From the NCBI RefSeq assembly GCF_013201825.1, contig NZ_CP053836.1, positions 2,852,001 to 2,916,000 of the forward strand: a stretch of 64,000 nucleotides of DNA, in the 5' to 3' direction. Position 1 is the stretch's first letter. Each line of letters starts with the position of its first letter. The translations under genes and the position numbers were made by a program. The stretch comes from Halarcobacter ebronensis. GTDB taxonomy: Bacteria > Campylobacterota > Campylobacteria > Campylobacterales > Arcobacteraceae. This document shows positions 6,881 to 18,311 of the stretch, in pieces. The notes beneath the pieces are model-generated. The model was not told where the DNA came from and made no database searches. It was given only the letters and a program-made list of their open reading frames with translations.

Positions 6881-8932
6881 ATGAAAAAAGCCATATTTTT
6901 ATCAATTGGTCTAGCTTCACTGCTATTTGCAACTGAAGATTTAGGAGTTATTAGTGTTGACTCCTCTACAATTGATGATAAATTTAAATCTACATTAAGT
7001 GATATCTCATCAACTGCAATTGTAGATTCAAATGAAATTGAGAAAATCAACCCACAAAATATTGTTGAAGTTTTAAACTCGGTGCCTGGAATTACAGCTA
7101 TGCAGACTGAAGGAGATATTGTTAAACTTCATATAAGAGGAGTTGATAACCAAGTATATATGGGAGAAAGACCTGGGGTTGCAGTTGTAATTGATGGAGT
7201 TCCTGTTCAAGAGACAACTGGAAAAATAAATATAGATTTAGAAAATATTGAAACAATCAAAGTTATTAAAGGTGGAGCTTCATATCTTTATGGAAATGAT
7301 GCCATTGCAGGAGCCATTGTAATTACTACAAAAAGACCAAAAGGAGAAAACTCTAGCAAGGTAGAAACAGAGTTTGGAAGTTTTGGTTATCAAAAATATC
7401 TTGCTTCAACAAATAGAAGTTTTGAAAACTCTGCTCTTCAAATTCAAGGAAGTTATAAAACTACAAATGGTTATTGGGACAGAGCTTTTAATGATAATAA
7501 ATCTTTTAGCAGTAAATATAACTACTATATAGATGATACAAGTGATATTATTTTTGGTTTAAGTTATAACAAAATAGATAGTGGTGATGGAAGTGGAGTT
7601 CATGGAGTTACAGCAGCAACAATTGACCCAAAAAGTGCAAGAGAGATTACTTACTCATCAGATTATGATACAACTCTTATTAAAACTTTTTTAACCTATT
7701 CAAAAGATTTTGAAGATAACTCAAACTTAATGGTTAGTACCTATAGATATCTTGATGATAAATCTTATCAATCTGGTTATGAAGATGCTAATGGTGATGG
7801 ACTAGATGAATCACATGATTATGCAAATGATGAGAAATGGACACAAAATGGTATAAAAAGTGAATACAGATTTAGTTTTGAGAAAAGTGCTTTTATGGCA
7901 GGAGCTGATATTCAAAGAAATAAACAAGAATCAAGCAGTACACCTTTACACGCTGGATTAACATACTCAGCAGTAGATACAAATGAAGATGTAAATGCTA
8001 TTTATGGAGAATTTAAATATAAAATAACAGATAATTTAACCTCAACATTAAATGCCAGATATGATAATATAAAGTATGATTTGAAAAATCTTACTAAACC
8101 AGCTAGTAGTATAAAATCAACTTACGATGAAGGTTCATATAGAGCTGGATTAAATTATAAAATCAACTCAAATACAAACTTATATACAAGTATCTCTACA
8201 GGATTTAGAGCTCCAACAGCTGATCAAATAAGCAGTAATAGCGCTGATGGTTATACAACTGATATTAAATCTGAATCAGTATACAACTATGAAATAGGAG
8301 TAAAGGGTAGTTTAGGATTTGTAAATTATGATGCTTCAATCTATCAGCTAAACAGAGATGACTATATTGGGAAAAGCGCAGGAAACTATGTAAGACGTTC
8401 TGATGAAGCAAACTATTATGATAATGTTGCAGATATGGTAAGTAGAGGTTTCGAACTTGCTTTAAGTGGTGATTTATCAAAAGATTTAGGATTTAATTTA
8501 GCCTATACTTATTTGGATGCATATTTTACAAGATATAGTTTTAAACAGTATGTTTCAGTTGGAAATTACAATACCCTTGATCTCTCAAATAATCAAGTTC
8601 CTAGAACTCCTAAACATACAATTAATCTAAGATTTGATTATAAAGTTGGAGCTAATTTAACTCTGTCACCTGAGATTATTGCTAAAAGTAGTTATTACGC
8701 AGATGAAACAAACTACTACAAACAAGGTGGTTATGCTTTAGTAAATTTAAGAACTTCATATAAAGTTAACAAAAATCTTGAACTTTTTGGAAGAGTAGAC
8801 AACCTTCTTGATAGAGACTATTATCAGTTTGTACAATTGACAAATAGTAGCGTAAGTTACACTATGGAAGATGCAACAATTATTGTCGGACCATCTAGGT
8901 CTTTTTATGTTGGGTTAAGATATAAATTTTAG
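6881..8932 (+). CDS. TonB-dependent outer-membrane receptor
   Basis: This 683-residue receptor has a signal peptide (MKKAIFLSIGLASLLFA) followed at once by a plausible TonB box, DLGVISVDSS. The plug domain is recognisable from ILNSVPGI-type sequence (VLNSVPGITAMQ), IRGVDNQ, VVIDGVPVQ and IKGGASYLYGNDAIAGAIVI. A long beta-barrel ends in FYVGLRYKF with the terminal Phe of outer-membrane barrels. It imports a scarce substrate such as a siderophore, haem or metal complex using TonB energy. The substrate cannot be assigned from sequence. It heads a five-gene operon that carries its own ExbB, ExbD and TonB, with AAGGAG 5 bp before the start. Confidence 0.92.
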   Translation: MKKAIFLSIGLASLLFATEDLGVISVDSSTIDDKFKSTLSDISSTAIVDSNEIEKINPQNIVEVLNSVPGITAMQTEGDIVKLHIRGVDNQVYMGERPGVAVVIDGVPVQETTGKINIDLENIETIKVIKGGASYLYGNDAIAGAIVITTKRPKGENSSKVETEFGSFGYQKYLASTNRSFENSALQIQGSYKTTNGYWDRAFNDNKSFSSKYNYYIDDTSDIIFGLSYNKIDSGDGSGVHGVTAATIDPKSAREITYSSDYDTTLIKTFLTYSKDFEDNSNLMVSTYRYLDDKSYQSGYEDANGDGLDESHDYANDEKWTQNGIKSEYRFSFEKSAFMAGADIQRNKQESSSTPLHAGLTYSAVDTNEDVNAIYGEFKYKITDNLTSTLNARYDNIKYDLKNLTKPASSIKSTYDEGSYRAGLNYKINSNTNLYTSISTGFRAPTADQISSNSADGYTTDIKSESVYNYEIGVKGSLGFVNYDASIYQLNRDDYIGKSAGNYVRRSDEANYYDNVADMVSRGFELALSGDLSKDLGFNLAYTYLDAYFTRYSFKQYVSVGNYNTLDLSNNQVPRTPKHTINLRFDYKVGANLTLSPEIIAKSSYYADETNYYKQGGYALVNLRTSYKVNKNLELFGRVDNLLDRDYYQFVQLTNSSVSYTMEDATIIVGPSRSFYVGLRYKF

Positions 8933-11977: not shown

Positions 11978-14081
11978 ATGGACTTTTCAATATCAGCAAA
12001 AAAAGAATGCGTATATTTTTCTTATTACAGTTGCAATTTTAAATACTGCCATTGCTATTTTAATGTTTATCTATTTAAAAGATAGTCTAATTGAGTCTAC
12101 TTATGAAAACAATATTAAACTTGCTCAAAATGAGTTTAACAAAACAGAGATTCAGATAAAAAAAGAGATTGATCACTATAGACTAATTTTAAGAGTTATA
12201 AAAGAGAGTGGAAATTTCCAACAATATATTATGGATTATGATAAAAATATAGAAAACACTTTAATCCATGATTTTGAAAATTATGCAAAAACAAATGAAG
12301 ATATTTTTCAGGTAAGATATTTAGACAATGAAGGGATGGAGAGAATAAGAGTTGATAAAATAAGTGGCGAAACGTATGTTGCAAAAAACCTTCAAAACAA
12401 AGAGAATAGATACTATTTTTTAAGAACAAAAAATTTAAAAGAGAATCAATACTACATCTCTGATTTTGACTTAAATGTAGAAAATGGTGAAATTGAAATA
12501 CCATACAAACCTACAATAAGAGTCTCAACACCCATTTACGAAGGAGATAAATTTTTAGGAATTTTAATAATCAATTATAATGTAAAGAATTTAATAGATT
12601 ATATTTCAGCACAAAATATATTCAATGTGTACTATATGGATAATGTAGGTAATTTTTTACTTCATCCTGATAGAAAAAAATGTTGGAGTACCCAACTTAA
12701 AACTAATTATAAAGTAAAAGATGAAATAAAAAATATAGATGAATTAAAACTAAATAACTATAAAGACAAGAATCTACTCTACTACATAGATAGAGTTTCT
12801 ATTACTGATACCGACTTTTTTATAATCTATTCAGTAAAAAAAGAGATTTATGAAAAAGAAGAAAAAGAGTTAGAAAATGAAATTTTTATGATATTTATCA
12901 TCATCTTTGTTGTTACTTTTCCTATTGTTATTATTGGTTCATATCTACAAGCATTTCAAATGAAAATTTTAGAGACTTTAATTGATAGTTTGCCTTTTCC
13001 TATTGCACTAAAAAATAGAGTTGGCAAATTTGTTTTGGTAAATGAATCTTTAGTAAGTCTTTATAGTTTTAAGAATAAAGAGTCACTATTGGGGAAAATA
13101 TCTTATGATTTTAGCTCAAAAAATCTTCCATATACTAATAAAATAAAAGATTCCCAAGCTCTTAAAAAAAGCAAAATAAAATATGAAGATATTCTTCATC
13201 TTCCAAGTAATAGTAAAGAGTTATATTTTGATACAAGATTGATAAAAATAACTTTCTTGGGACTTTTTAAAAAAGATTTTATTTTAGGTATTGCCATAGA
13301 TATAACAGAGCTTAAAGAGCTTAATAATGAACTAGAAAAAAGGGTAAAAGAGGAGTTGGCAAAAAGATTAAAAAGTGAACAAAGACTTGCTCAAAAAACA
13401 AAACTTGCAGAGATTGGAAACTTAATTGATAATATTATTCTTCAATGGGAACACCCTTTAAATCTTATCTCATTAAATACTCAAGCTATAGAGTTGGAAT
13501 ATGAAACAATAAATAAACTTGATGAAGAGAATACTTTAAAAAGAGTGGAAACAATTAAAGAGAGTACCCAATTTATGTTTGATACAACTGCTGATTTAAA
13601 ACTGTTTTTATCCCTTGATAAAGGAATTGAACTCTTTAGTCTTTCAGATATTGTCAACACCGTTGAAAGAATTTTAATGGGAAGATTAAAAAAGTTACAT
13701 ATTGATATAAGAAAAGAGATTAATGAAGAGATTAAGATACAAGGTTTAAAAAATGAATTCTCTCAAGTGATATTAAACCTTATAAATAACTCATTAAACG
13801 AGTTTGAGTCATCAAATAAAAAATATACAAAAAAAGATATTTTTATTGGGGCTTCAATTACTGAAACTTTTATTGTAATAAAAGTTGAAGACAATGCAAA
13901 AGAGCTTCCATTAAAAGCTACAAAAAAAATCTTTAATGAAAATTTTGAAAGTGAAAATGAAGATATACAAAGAAAAGGATTACATATTTGTAAAGGGATT
14001 ATTAATAATATTTTTAAAGGAACAATAGAAGCAAACTCTAAAAATGGTTATACTGTTTTTGAGGTAAAAATTCCACTCTAA
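11978..14081 (+). pseudogene. Degenerate dCache-PAS sensor histidine kinase with a +1 frameshift near the start
   Basis: The best start (ATG 11978, after an A/G-rich ribosome binding site) opens MDFSISAKK and then meets a run of seven A (11998-12004). Removing one A joins it to the main frame as KKNAYIFLITVAILNTAIAI, a normal first membrane helix. As read, the main frame has its first ATG only at 12063, inside that helix, with no ribosome binding site. Downstream are a periplasmic Cache-like domain, a second membrane helix (about residues 274-298 from 12063), a PAS domain and a kinase core. The phosphoacceptor region reads IILQWEHPL where active relatives have IAHQWRQPL, so the His is Leu460. 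The ATP boxes are also degraded (EDNAKELP for EDNGGGIP; RKGLHICKG for GTGIGLYISK). It is a decaying kinase or a pseudokinase; a sequencing error in the A-run is possible. Confidence 0.72.
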
Positions 14082-14090
14082 TTTAGCTTA

Positions 14091-14110
14091 TGTCACAAAA
14101 ATTGTCACAA
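14091..14110 (+). promoter_or_regulatory. Tandem direct repeat TGTCACAA-N4-TGTCACAA (site 1)
   Basis: Two identical TGTCACAA octamers (14091-14098 and 14103-14110) sit at a 12-bp period, 94 bp upstream of the 7TMR-DISM kinase start. A TATAAT hexamer at 14171-14176 could be the promoter. Tandem direct half-sites are typical of OmpR/PhoB-family regulators, and such regulators are encoded immediately downstream. Related sites occur at 16744 and 17572. Confidence 0.6.
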
Positions 14111-14203: not shown

Positions 14204-16072
14204 TTGAAATTAAAAATTATAATTTTACTTCTTTTTTTATCATCACTATTGCATGCCCAAATAATTAAAATTGATGAAATGACAAAAAGTACAGATATTC
14301 TTTCTCACTCAGAAATATATATTGATAAAACAAAAAATTTGACTATAGATGATATTATTGGAAAAAATTTAAAATTTGAACCAAACAGTAAAAAAATATT
14401 ACCATATGGTTACTCTCCTGATTTTAATGTCTGGATTAAGTTTACTCTACAAAATAACTCAAATAGTATCCTAAATAGAATAATTGAGTATGATAACCCA
14501 CTTACAACTACAGTAAATTTCTATGATCCAGATAAGAATTATCAAGAACAAAAAAATGGACTCTTTTCAAAAGATTTCACAAGAAATAGTGTTAATCCAA
14601 CTTTTGAAGCCCATCTTAAAGCAAATGAAACAAAAACCTATTATTTAAATGTTTCTTCTTATATTACTACTTTGATTATAAAAGTTAAACTTTGGCAGGA
14701 GGAAGCCTTTTTTAATAAAGAGGTATTCCATCAGATTATTTTGGCTTTGTTTTTTGGATCAATGCTTATTCTAGGAGTATACAATCTCTTTATTTTCTTT
14801 TTCACAAAGGATTTAAGTTACTTATATTATGTACTTTATATTTTTGGCATTGTTTTTCATCAATTAGTTTATGTAGGTTTTATTAAGTTTTTTATTGAAT
14901 CTACTCAAACTATTCATAATCTTATTGAAGCAGCATCAATAATTGTTGCTTTCCCTGTTTTAGCTCTTGGAATGTTTACAAAAACTTTTTTACAAACAAA
15001 ACAGTACCCAAAACACAATCTTATATTAAATGCTTTTCTTATTTTAATTCCTATTGCCATACTCTTTTTCCTTTTTTCAAATGGATATGATAAATATAGA
15101 AATTTATTTACAATGTTACTTCTAATTTATCTAATGTATTTAACTTTATATGCAGCAATAAAAAGGAATAGACAAGCCTATTTTATACTCTTTGCCTGGA
15201 CAATTTTCTTAACCTCTGGGATGTTAATGTTTTTATCAAGTGCTGGGATATTTAATATCTATGAACATGTACCTTATTTTGTTGAAATCTCTTTTATTTT
15301 AGAGGCTATTTTATTCTCTATTGCTTTGGCAAATAGAATTAACTCTTTGCAAAAAGAGAAAGAAGAGGCAAATAAAAAACTTTTAGATCAACAAAAAAAT
15401 GAGACTAAAATTCTTGCTAAAAAAGTTGAAGAGAGAACAGTAGATTTAACAAAAGCATTAGAGGAAAAAAGTCTTCTTCTAAAAGAGCTAAATCATAGAG
15501 TTAAAAATAATATGCAAACAATTGTTTCTTTAATTAGACTACAAAATGATGAAGTTGAAGATGAGAGACTTCAAGATGTATTAATGACAATACAAAATAG
15601 AATTAATGCTATGAGTCACTTACACGAACTTCTTTATAGGAAAGATGATATATCATCTATAAATGCTTTTGAATATTTTGAAGTATTAGTTGAAGAGGTA
15701 AAATACAGTTACCAAAAAGATATAGAGATTATTTTGAATGTAAAAACTGAACTAAGAATTGAAGATGCTATTTATTGTGGTTTAATCCTAAATGAACTAC
15801 TTACAAACTCATTTAAATATGCTTTCCCAAAAAAGGAAGGAAATATATATATTAATTTAGAGAAAAATGACAACACTTTTCTCTTGGAAGTAAAAGACAA
15901 TGGAATTGGATATGATAAAAAATCAATAAAAGACAACTCATTAGGAACATTATTAATTCATACATTAGCAACCCAACAGTTAGATGGAGAAATAGTAACG
16001 GATTCTCAAGATGGAGTAAAGGTATCAATTACATGGATAGATTATGAAAAAGGCAAAGATTTTAATAGTTGA
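14204..16072 (+). CDS. 7TMR-DISM sensor histidine kinase (HisKA_2 type)
   Basis: A 622-residue kinase starting at TTG (AAAGG at 14191-14195 upstream). A signal peptide (LLFLSSLLHA) precedes a periplasmic 7TMR-DISM extracellular domain (about 25-175). Seven membrane helices follow (about 180-385), then a coiled coil, then a HisKA_2 dimerisation region with the phosphoacceptor His431 in LNHRVKNNMQTIVSLIRLQ, and an ATPase domain (NELLTNSFKYAF, VKDNGIGYD). 7TMR-DISM domains are small-molecule sensors of mostly unknown ligand. It overlaps the next response-regulator gene by 29 bp and almost certainly phosphorylates that protein. The neighbouring synthase homologue makes an acylated signal a candidate ligand, which is inference only. 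Confidence 0.9.
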   Translation: MKLKIIILLLFLSSLLHAQIIKIDEMTKSTDILSHSEIYIDKTKNLTIDDIIGKNLKFEPNSKKILPYGYSPDFNVWIKFTLQNNSNSILNRIIEYDNPLTTTVNFYDPDKNYQEQKNGLFSKDFTRNSVNPTFEAHLKANETKTYYLNVSSYITTLIIKVKLWQEEAFFNKEVFHQIILALFFGSMLILGVYNLFIFFFTKDLSYLYYVLYIFGIVFHQLVYVGFIKFFIESTQTIHNLIEAASIIVAFPVLALGMFTKTFLQTKQYPKHNLILNAFLILIPIAILFFLFSNGYDKYRNLFTMLLLIYLMYLTLYAAIKRNRQAYFILFAWTIFLTSGMLMFLSSAGIFNIYEHVPYFVEISFILEAILFSIALANRINSLQKEKEEANKKLLDQQKNETKILAKKVEERTVDLTKALEEKSLLLKELNHRVKNNMQTIVSLIRLQNDEVEDERLQDVLMTIQNRINAMSHLHELLYRKDDISSINAFEYFEVLVEEVKYSYQKDIEIILNVKTELRIEDAIYCGLILNELLTNSFKYAFPKKEGNIYINLEKNDNTFLLEVKDNGIGYDKKSIKDNSLGTLLIHTLATQQLDGEIVTDSQDGVKVSITWIDYEKGKDFNS

Positions 16073-16733
16073 AGATGAAACTATAGTTGCTTTAGATATA
16101 AAAAGTGCTCTTTTGCATTTGGGTTATGAAGTTACCCAATGTGTAAGAAGTTATAACAAAGCTCTTGAAAGTGTAATAAATAACAAACCAGATATTATTC
16201 TCATGGATATTCATCTATTTGGCGATAAAGATGGTATTGAAACAGCAATTGCTATCCAAAAAATAGAGAATATTCCCATCATATATTTAACTGCCTATTC
16301 CGATGAAAAAACAATAAGCAGAGCCATTGAAACCAATCCAATAAGTTATCTTATTAAACCTTTTAAAAGGGATGAACTAAACTCCACAATCCGTTTGGGT
16401 CTTTATAAATTAAATAAATCTAATAGATGTAATATAGAGATGAAATGTGTAAATTTAGGATTTAACTATTTTTTTGATTTAAATAATGAGATACTATATT
16501 ATGAAAATATACCTATAAAACTAAGTCAAAATGAGAAAAAACTCTTAACTCTTTTAGTTGAAGCAAAAGGTTCATTAATAAGTTTTAGTGAGATTGAGTA
16601 CTATATTTGGCCTGATTGTGCAGTTTCAAGTAGTGCGTTAAGAACACTGATTTATCGTTTAAGGGGAAAACTTGAGTATAAAATTATTGAAACTGTTCCC
16701 TCTTTAGGATGTAAACTAACTCCTCTTTTTTAG
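16044..16733 (+). CDS. Response regulator, receiver plus Trans_reg_C winged helix (paralogue 1)
   Basis: A 229-residue regulator. The receiver (1-120) has acidic pocket ED at 10-11, phosphoacceptor Asp55 in ILMDIHLF and the conserved Lys in LIKPFKRDEL. The C-terminal OmpR-type winged helix (about 150-229) contains IEYYIWPDCAVSSSALRTLI and YRLRGKLEYKIIETVPSLG. The gene starts inside the end of the upstream kinase gene (29-bp overlap), so the pair is translationally coupled. It is clearly paralogous to the regulator at 17622. It is the most likely protein to bind the 12-bp-period direct repeats in this locus. Confidence 0.92.
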   Translation: MKKAKILIVEDETIVALDIKSALLHLGYEVTQCVRSYNKALESVINNKPDIILMDIHLFGDKDGIETAIAIQKIENIPIIYLTAYSDEKTISRAIETNPISYLIKPFKRDELNSTIRLGLYKLNKSNRCNIEMKCVNLGFNYFFDLNNEILYYENIPIKLSQNEKKLLTLLVEAKGSLISFSEIEYYIWPDCAVSSSALRTLIYRLRGKLEYKIIETVPSLGCKLTPLF

Positions 16734-16743
16734 CTTAATTTGT

Positions 16744-16763
16744 TTGTGACAGAAAGCGTGACG
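16744..16763 (-). promoter_or_regulatory. Tandem direct repeat CGTCACGC-N4-TGTCACAA (site 2, minus orientation)
   Basis: On the minus strand the two half-sites read CGTCACGC and TGTCACAA with a 4-bp gap, again a 12-bp period. The site lies 40 bp upstream of the LuxI-like gene. It shares GTCAC-N7-GTCAC exactly with site 1 (14091) but in the opposite orientation. Confidence 0.55.
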
Positions 16764-16777
16764 CTGCTCTTGTAAAG

Positions 16778-16799
16778 TTGTCCTTAAAAAAAAGGACAA
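16778..16799 (+). promoter_or_regulatory. Hairpin sequestering the ribosome binding site of the LuxI-like gene
   Basis: TTGTCCTT (16778-16785) and AAGGACAA (16792-16799) form a perfect 8-bp stem around a 6-A loop. The only good Shine-Dalgarno sequence of the gene starting at 16803, AAGGA at 16792-16796, lies wholly in the stem. Translation should be reduced unless the stem is opened. This is a direct sequence observation; regulation is inferred. Confidence 0.55.
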
Positions 16800-16802
16800 A
16801 AA

Positions 16803-17564
16803 ATGGTAAATATAAACAAAAACATCTCGTTATTCCAGTTACAAGAGTTGCTTGAAGCAAATTTCCAACAAAAATCAACATATCTTCCTGAGGGGTTTTA
16901 CAAAGAGCAACAAAAAGCTATTGAAATCTTTAATAAAAGAATTTTTTTAGAAAAAGTAATTGATGAGACAATATCATTTAATAAAAAACTTGTCTGGACA
17001 TATGAAAAAAATAATCTAAAACTTACTAAAACAGCTGAAGAGTTGATTGAAGTATTCAAACTAAGAAGTGACGTTTACACAGATATTAACTACCAACATG
17101 AGTTTCCTGATACTATAGAGGGTCTCAATTTTGACAAATTTGATATGAACTCAGCAGTTATATATTATCAAAAAAACAAAGAAGTAACAGCTTCTATAAG
17201 ACTTATATTTGACTCTAAAGAGAATCTTCCAACAGAAGGAAAAGTTAAATTTGATGATATGAGAAAAAAATATAATACTATTGGAGAGATCTCTAGAAAT
17301 GTAGTTAAATATAGAAATGAGGGACTTCATCAAGAGTTCAAATATCTTATGTGTGGAATATATAATATCTTTATTAATAATGATATTGATATTGCTCTTT
17401 CAGGGATAAGAAAAGACCACTTAAAACTTTTTAAAAAATTAGGAGGAGTAGAGATTTACAAAGAGATGGAAGGGTATGGTTCCCTTGATGTACCTTTTTT
17501 AATTATCTCTTATAATCCAGAGTTTGCATCAAAATTTTTCAAAAAAGTTTTTTTGGAACAATAG
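16803..17564 (+). CDS. LuxI/FeeM-superfamily acyl-signal synthase homologue
   Basis: A 253-residue cytoplasmic protein. An N-terminal extension of about 75 residues precedes a core that reads like an autoinducer synthase. Candidate catalytic positions are Arg88 and Tyr92 (LRSDVYTD), Asp111 and Asp114 (NFDKFD), Arg133 (SIRLIF), and Glu162 and Arg165 (GEISRNVV). The known LuxI-family set in EsaI is Arg24, Phe28, Asp45, Asp48, Arg68, Glu97 and Arg100. The gaps D-3-D, R-29-E and E-3-R are identical. The conserved Trp34 has no obvious equivalent. LuxI and FeeM-type enzymes join an acyl group from acyl-ACP to an amino substrate, so the product here could be an acyl-homoserine lactone or an N-acyl amino acid. 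It stands alone between two paralogous response regulators, with repeat site 2 and a hairpin over its ribosome binding site. No LuxR homologue is seen. The product and substrate are unknown. Confidence 0.75.
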   Translation: MVNINKNISLFQLQELLEANFQQKSTYLPEGFYKEQQKAIEIFNKRIFLEKVIDETISFNKKLVWTYEKNNLKLTKTAEELIEVFKLRSDVYTDINYQHEFPDTIEGLNFDKFDMNSAVIYYQKNKEVTASIRLIFDSKENLPTEGKVKFDDMRKKYNTIGEISRNVVKYRNEGLHQEFKYLMCGIYNIFINNDIDIALSGIRKDHLKLFKKLGGVEIYKEMEGYGSLDVPFLIISYNPEFASKFFKKVFLEQ

Positions 17565-17571
17565 ATGAATT

Positions 17572-17591
17572 TGCAACAAAAACTGTAACAA
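17572..17591 (+). promoter_or_regulatory. Tandem direct repeat TGCAACAA-N4-TGTAACAA (site 3)
   Basis: Two half-sites, TGCAACAA (17572-17579) and TGTAACAA (17584-17591), again have a 12-bp period. They lie 31 bp upstream of the second response regulator and overlap where a -35 box would be, given a TATCAT hexamer at 17600-17605. The match is weaker than site 1 (TGtcACAA replaced by TGcaACAA and TGtaACAA), but spacing and spacer length are the same. Confidence 0.45.
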
Positions 17592-17621: not shown

Positions 17622-18311
17622 ATGAATAGAGCGAAAATTTTAATTGTTGAAGATGAAACTATAGTTGCTTTGGACATAAAAAAGATACTTCAAAGTCTCA
17701 ACTTTGAAGTAACTGGAACTGCAACAAACTACAATGCGGCACTAAATAGCGTAAGAGTAAATAAACCAGATTTAATACTTATGGATATAAATCTAGGTAA
17801 AGGTTTAGATGGAATTGAAACCATAAAAAAAATTCACTTAAATGAAAAAATTCCTGTTATTTATATTACTGCTTTTACTGATGAAAAAACTATAAGTAGA
17901 GCTATTCAAACTGAACCAGTAAGTTATCTTATAAAACCTTTTAAAAGAGATGAATTAAAATCAAATATTCTTTTAGGAATTTATAAAAATAGTAAAAAAA
18001 GCCAGTTATACAAAAATCTTGTTGATTTGGATTTGGGTCTTGGATACTATTATAACTACAAAACAAACAAACTCTTTTTTAAAGAGATGCCTATAAACTT
18101 AAGTAAAAATGAGAATCTTTTACTTAGAATACTTATTGAAGCAAATAACAATGTTGTCTCTTTTAGCGAATTAGAACAGAGAATTTGGCCTAATAGTACC
18201 ATTTCAGATAGTACTTTAAGAACTTTAGTTTATAGGCTAAGAAGTAAATTAGAACATAAAATTATAGAGACAATTCAAAAAGTTGGATGTAGATTAAACA
18301 GAAATAATTAA
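17622..18311 (+). CDS. Response regulator, receiver plus Trans_reg_C winged helix (paralogue 2)
   Basis: A 229-residue protein with the same length and layout as the regulator at 16044. It has IVEDETIVALDIK at the N-terminus, Asp55 in LILMDINLGK, LIKPFKRDELKSNI, and a winged helix with LEQRIWPNSTISDSTLRTLV and YRLRSKLEHKIIETIQKVG. The first 20 codons are nearly identical at DNA level to those of the 16044 gene, consistent with a local duplication. AAGGAAAGAG precedes the ATG. No kinase is directly paired with it, so it may share the 7TMR-DISM kinase, or it may have belonged to the degenerate kinase at 11978. Confidence 0.92.
   Translation: MNRAKILIVEDETIVALDIKKILQSLNFEVTGTATNYNAALNSVRVNKPDLILMDINLGKGLDGIETIKKIHLNEKIPVIYITAFTDEKTISRAIQTEPVSYLIKPFKRDELKSNILLGIYKNSKKSQLYKNLVDLDLGLGYYYNYKTNKLFFKEMPINLSKNENLLLRILIEANNNVVSFSELEQRIWPNSTISDSTLRTLVYRLRSKLEHKIIETIQKVGCRLNRNN

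Follow-up and report, generated by a model that had tools for sequence, protein, structure and literature searches.

The 64,000-nucleotide stretch of the Halarcobacter ebronensis genome analysed here (the window; contig NZ_CP053836.1, positions 2,852,001 to 2,916,000) carries a gene that raises the question of whether relatives of Arcobacter make an acyl signal of their own and, if so, what would sense it. A first-pass annotation of this DNA had described the product as a LuxI/FeeM-like synthase of a diffusible signal that works with two-component regulators and no LuxR; we know of no acyl-signal circuit described in the Campylobacterota beyond LuxS. We now consider it probable, at roughly two chances in three, that the gene belongs to a self-contained autoinducing acyl-signal circuit with a membrane kinase as receptor and no LuxR.

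A FeeM-family enzyme with a LuxI-like set of charged residues

16803..17564, plus strand: FeeM/LuxI-fold acyltransferase, proposed signal synthase; 253 aa, ATG start, N-terminal helices at residues 1-62, catalytic domain at about 68-253

The open reading frame has exactly the boundaries first assigned to it and is a real gene, present as a single copy in a genome that consists of one contig of 3.17 Mb and is 99.99% complete. Profile searches, as proposed in the first-pass annotation, placed its product in the Pfam FeeM family (PF21926; 67.4 bits against a cut-off of 27, residues 83-236), whose cut-off is likewise exceeded by its relatives, and at 1.6e-18 the family match is not a matter of chance. 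The LuxI profile (PF00765, Autoind_synth) gave no match to the protein at E ≤ 1 and none in the complete H. ebronensis genome. The LuxR-type Autoind_bind domain (PF03472) was also absent from that genome by profile search, in agreement with the expected lack of a LuxR, and one LuxS, anticipated as typical of the phylum, is present. By profile the protein is FeeM and not LuxI, and the original LuxI/FeeM-like call holds for its FeeM/LuxI-type fold and its conserved charged residues.

With the single protein as query, a PDB sequence search gave no match and a scan of named genomes found nothing; the same scan with an alignment-based query found 34 loci. An apparent 613-aa synthase fusion in one of the loci examined (L104) proved to be no fusion: the frame reads through from an open frame upstream, which overlaps a gene on the opposite strand. 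A weak partial NCBIfam match (29.5 bits) might suggest an exosortase/PEP-CTERM-associated acyltransferase (TIGR03694), a reading we regard as extremely improbable, as the score falls far under the cut-off of 111.95 and the absence of exosortase (PF09721) from the complete genome already contradicts it.

An AlphaFold2 model of the protein, built from an alignment of 38 sequences (mean pLDDT 89), was superposed on solved structures along the lines suggested by the first-pass annotation, and the FeeM/LuxI fold was found. The best structural match is FeeM (2G0B; Z 18.7, rmsd 3.0, 175 aligned residues, 13% identity), followed by the LuxI enzymes RpaI (Z 17.1), BjaI (16.9) and LasI (16.9), which together with TofI span 16.6-17.1. 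Generic GNATs come next in the ranking (VIA-align), from Z 16.4 downwards, and the fold alone is therefore no proof of chemistry. One of them, SACOL1063 (Z 16.4), superposes nearly as well, as would be expected if the protein were a GNAT acetyltransferase of the common small-molecule or protein type and modified the neighbouring kinase or regulator, with nothing secreted. We think this very unlikely, since the FeeM and LuxI alignments cover residues 68-253, including the C-terminal part, whereas those of generic GNATs mostly stop near residue 240, and since the Pfam match is to FeeM and the conserved charged residues are those found in LuxI enzymes.

The residues of this set (R88, Y92, D111, D114, R133, E162 and R165) lie at the positions previously listed for them. 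Across 38 Arcobacteraceae relatives of 41-81% identity, R88, D111, D114 and E162 never vary, R133 and R165 keep their identity in at least 90% (with Lys in place of R165 in two and of R133 in one), and position 92 is Tyr or Phe. The R-F, D-D, R and E-R residues of LuxI are present in the family, with the proviso that Phe can be Tyr. Read onto LuxI structures by way of a more LuxI-like relative (L135), the motif RSDVY corresponds to RAQVF of LasI and RHQIY of RpaI, FDKFD to IDGYD of LasI, SIRL to CWRI of LasI, and GEISR to WEWSR of BjaI. FeeM carries Ser and Gln in place of R133 and R165, which brings the charged set of this family closer to LuxI despite the FeeM profile.

The protein thus resembles FeeM in its profile score and closest structural match, and differs from it in overall identity, in the two arginines, in its extra N-terminal helices, in its linkage to a kinase-regulator pair, and in that no acyl carrier protein was found among the eight proteins scanned (the synthase and seven neighbours). 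With LuxI enzymes such as LasI, RpaI, BjaI and EsaI it has in common the fold (Z about 16-17) and the charged positions, the two arginines among them; unlike them, it lacks an Autoind_synth match, and its genome lacks a LuxR partner.

The L135 relative (L135:6420-8247, genome G303) is a different FeeM-type protein with a C-terminal cyclic-nucleotide-binding domain, and it also exceeds the Autoind_synth cut-off. It adjoins a leucine-carboxyl-methyltransferase-like gene and is a possible maker of methylated N-acyl compounds.

Linkage to a sensor kinase and a response regulator

14204..16072, plus strand: histidine kinase with 7TMR-DISMED2, 7TMR-DISM_7TM, HisKA_2 and HATPase domains (Pfam); proposed cognate receptor
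16044..16733, plus strand: response regulator, Receiver plus Trans_reg_C (OmpR-type), overlapping the kinase gene by 29 bp; proposed GTGAC-box binder
17622..18311, plus strand: second response regulator, a paralogue of the 16044 product, found in many but not all modules and with its own box in relatives

One 7TMR-DISM kinase adjoins the synthase in 39 of 40 Arcobacteraceae loci, where one OmpR-type regulator (16044) usually lies between or beside the two. Gene orders vary, from kinase-regulator-synthase to regulator-synthase-kinase to a synthase divergent from the kinase-regulator pair. The kinase link recurs in 13 of another 17 loci, most of which come from Campylobacterota families other than this one; among the four exceptions, L089 and L091 are on contigs that are short or that end at the locus, and in L097 the regulator is present. 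A synthase with an upstream box (described below) and no adjacent kinase was seen in L088, L089, L091 and L061, two of these contigs being short. Across 104 genomes of the family, the synthase occurs in 41, and a kinase detected at E ≤ 1e-100 occurs in all 41 of those and in 6 of the 63 others (Fisher 7e-23, uncorrected for the relatedness of the genomes and, like the distance test described below, overstating independence because linked genes share history).

Adjacency and co-occurrence make the link to two-component regulators far tighter than could be seen from the window. The signalling island proposed in the first-pass annotation contracts to the kinase-regulator-synthase module, as the nearby signalling genes at 12063, 18596, 20914 and 21567 are not generally conserved with it.

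A direct repeat upstream of the synthase, the kinase and accessory genes

16746..16762, plus strand: box GTGACAGAAAGCGTGAC, a GTGAC-N7-GTGAC direct repeat with a 12-bp period, lying 40 bp ahead of the ATG of the synthase
14092..14108, minus strand: box GTGACAATTTTTGTGAC upstream of the kinase, in the opposite orientation; at the same position in L034 and L035
16772..16779, plus strand: putative -10-like element TGTAAAGT after the synthase box, picked by eye; TATAAA in several relatives
17573..17589, plus strand: putative degenerate copy of the box, GCAACAAAAACTGTAAC, ahead of the second regulator; L036 has it intact (GTGACAAAAACTGTGAC)

A direct repeat about 40 bp before the start codon is common to the upstream regions of the synthases. 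In the module loci, 107 repeats have the N7 spacing and 18 have N6; each remaining spacing between 3 and 15 yielded 0-2, and so did two control motifs. An 11-bp spacing (N6), considered as the main form, was rejected in favour of N7, N6 being the minority. The whole H. ebronensis genome holds three exact boxes, one in the synthase promoter, one in the kinase promoter and one elsewhere, and none of the reversed pattern; the chance of two of the three falling inside the 3.5-kb module is near 4e-6. On its own strand, the third box (L200:1971, genome position 943470) is followed by no gene for 200 bp. The closest gene start belongs to a divergent 107-aa ORF, a relative of which sits at a box in another genome (G054).

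Counted over the 104 genomes with a slightly stricter form of the box, synthase carriers have 203 boxes (median 4, at least one in 40 of 41) and the other genomes 32 (median 0), a difference whose P value is indicative only because the genomes are related. From this association and the position of the boxes, we infer that the 16044 regulator is the box binder. One genome, G051 (L188, L211-L213, L232 and L233), has eleven boxes, but no synthase and no close kinase was detected in it; these genes were missed in an assembly that is 86% complete, or else another regulator reads the boxes.

Box-controlled genes outside the module are accessory and mostly lack a Pfam match. They include apparent lipoproteins (called from their N-termini), SbcD-like nucleases, SPFH proteins, a diguanylate cyclase and some defence-like genes picked by eye (Tmn, Old/GajA-like, SIR2 and TIR). 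A regulon of defence genes was considered and rejected: when 64 distinct box targets were compared with 64 length-matched neighbours, PADLOC matches were few on both sides and showed no excess among the targets, so that we claim no enrichment. One recurrent box-controlled family begins M-E-I/R-x-S-T-N-S-S-x-Y (L242:1931-4488 and L243:2035-4520, with similar starts in L174 and L063), and its members are possibly secreted.

The boxes bring into play an alternative in which the enzyme is an output: the two-component system would sense an envelope or environmental cue and switch on surface lipoproteins and an N-acyltransferase whose product is a membrane aminolipid or surfactant. The synthase box is placed as at other genes, several of which resemble lipoprotein genes; the N-acyl amino acids made by enzymes of the FeeM family include surfactants (PMC4897644); and an enzyme regulated solely as an output would yield part of the pattern observed. 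The synthase is, however, the one box target retained with the kinase across the phylum despite shuffled gene orders, and we judge the output explanation unlikely, though it deserves to be taken seriously. An autoinducing circuit remains our preferred reading.

A predicted hairpin over the ribosome-binding site

16778..16799, plus strand: hairpin TTGTCCTT-AAAAAA-AAGGACAA, burying the Shine-Dalgarno sequence just before the ATG; predicted MFE -9.3, z -5.2

A predicted MFE of -5 kcal/mol or lower was found in 36 of 44 alignable synthase leaders (mean z -3.5), compared with 23% of 224 control genes, and in most of the 44 the stem is predicted to pair with the Shine-Dalgarno sequence. The stem sequences themselves vary, for example CTCCTGAT/ATCAGGAG in L092 and GCCCTTTAT/ATAAAGGGC in L098, and four of the six consensus pairs show double-sided changes. 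The hairpin is lost in a clade with the divergent arrangement (L068, L069 and L071) and in L088. Rfam holds no family for it.

Relatives without the synthase

Two genomes, G013 and G014, lack the synthase and share the locus with a carrier, G003, at 93% and 84% DNA identity, respectively. In comparisons of L147 and L148 with L043, similarity to G003 breaks off at the box of the synthase (at 8009 and 8026 in L043, where the box spans 8010-8026), and in G014 it resumes at the next box-controlled gene (10312). Both genomes keep the kinase, regulator and boxes, and no synthase remnant was found; it is as if recombination from box to box had removed the synthase cassette. This pattern fits the loss of signal production with retained perception, and it also fits the loss of a dispensable output gene, as the output explanation would have it. 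If the module is a signalling circuit, such receiver-only species are natural experiments on signal loss. Elsewhere, the synthase frames of L060 and L070 are broken by in-frame stops in G086 and G030, where the kinase is intact or nearly so, apparently further cases of synthase loss.

The kinase as candidate receptor

Pairwise distances were compared among 48 modules, all with the kinase in the locus, so that the test is silent on linkage. Synthase distances correlate with those of the 7-TM segment of the kinase at r 0.83, at 0.52 with all other segments fixed, and at 0.39 in divergent pairs only, against partial r values of -0.09 for the kinase domain, 0.15 for the outer DISMED2 and 0.14 for the receiver. 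The coupling is suggestive of an acyl ligand in the membrane part of the kinase, with the caution that the 7-TM segment may be just the least noisy clock, because it correlates best with every other part. That synthase distances track the sensor part and not the kinase domain also argues against the enzyme being a mere output of the two-component system. LadS, a 7TMR-DISM kinase, is reported to respond to calcium; to our knowledge, no 7TMR-DISM kinase is established as an acyl-signal receptor.

Proposed circuit and its relation to known systems

In the circuit that we propose, the fold and residues of the synthase suggest that it would acylate an amine substrate, perhaps an amino acid or S-adenosylmethionine, with acyl-ACP or acyl-CoA as the donor, to give an N-acyl compound. 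Linkage and co-variation suggest that this product would leave the cell and be sensed by the 7-TM kinase (14204), with the 7-TM part as the likeliest ligand-binding site, and adjacency that the kinase would phosphorylate the 16044 regulator. The regulator would in turn bind the GTGAC-N7-GTGAC boxes observed ahead of the synthase and kinase genes, so that the circuit would feed back on itself; in other species it may also act at the boxes before many accessory genes. The predicted hairpin over the synthase ribosome-binding site could add a translational gate, triggered perhaps by temperature or an RNA-binding protein.

More tentatively, and at somewhat short of even odds, the Campylobacterota may possess an acyl-signal language of their own, in which an enzyme of the FeeM branch, its charged pocket resembling that of LuxI, makes an as yet undescribed signal that a 7TMR-DISM kinase perceives with its 7-TM part and that controls species-specific, box-marked accessory genes, with a hairpin gate and with receiver-only species arising by box-to-box deletion of the synthase.

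In the LuxM/LuxN, CqsA/CqsS, LqsA/LqsS and RpfF/RpfC systems, a signal synthase gene has as neighbours the genes of a response regulator and of a histidine kinase that serves as membrane receptor. The module resembles these in linking a synthase to a sensor kinase and regulator, and differs in its FeeM-type synthase, its proposed 7TMR-DISM and HisKA_2 receptor and an output that would run directly through an OmpR-type regulator on GTGAC-N7-GTGAC boxes. Among known systems, LuxM/LuxN and RpfF/RpfC come closest to it in logic, though their parts differ. The DISMED2, 7TM and kinase architecture is that of 7TMR-DISM kinases such as LadS, for which we know of no signal synthase partner. Such kinases are mostly orphan receptors, and the circuit, if true, would offer a candidate ligand class for them. 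Our search of open-access papers for Arcobacter with AHL synthases, and for 7TMR-DISM with N-acyl amino acid synthases, found nothing.

What emerges looks like a complete and undescribed communication circuit in Arcobacter and its relatives, which are marine and animal-associated bacteria. Because the likely receptor, regulator, binding site and regulon map come with the synthase, the circuit is directly testable in culturable Aliarcobacter and Malaciobacter.

The module is also found on plasmids of food-borne Aliarcobacter. The synthase is annotated "hypothetical protein" in the plasmid records examined, and the relevant passage on an A. cryaerophilus plasmid lists the kinase, annotated as carbohydrate binding, and the regulator, leaving the synthase unnamed there (PMC6690266). 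Two such modules, on Aliarcobacter/Arcobacter plasmids of 100-160 kb (pACRY43158, L154; p133_LEO_107, L255), adjoin genes for a dGTPase, a DUF2779 protein and AAA-type proteins.
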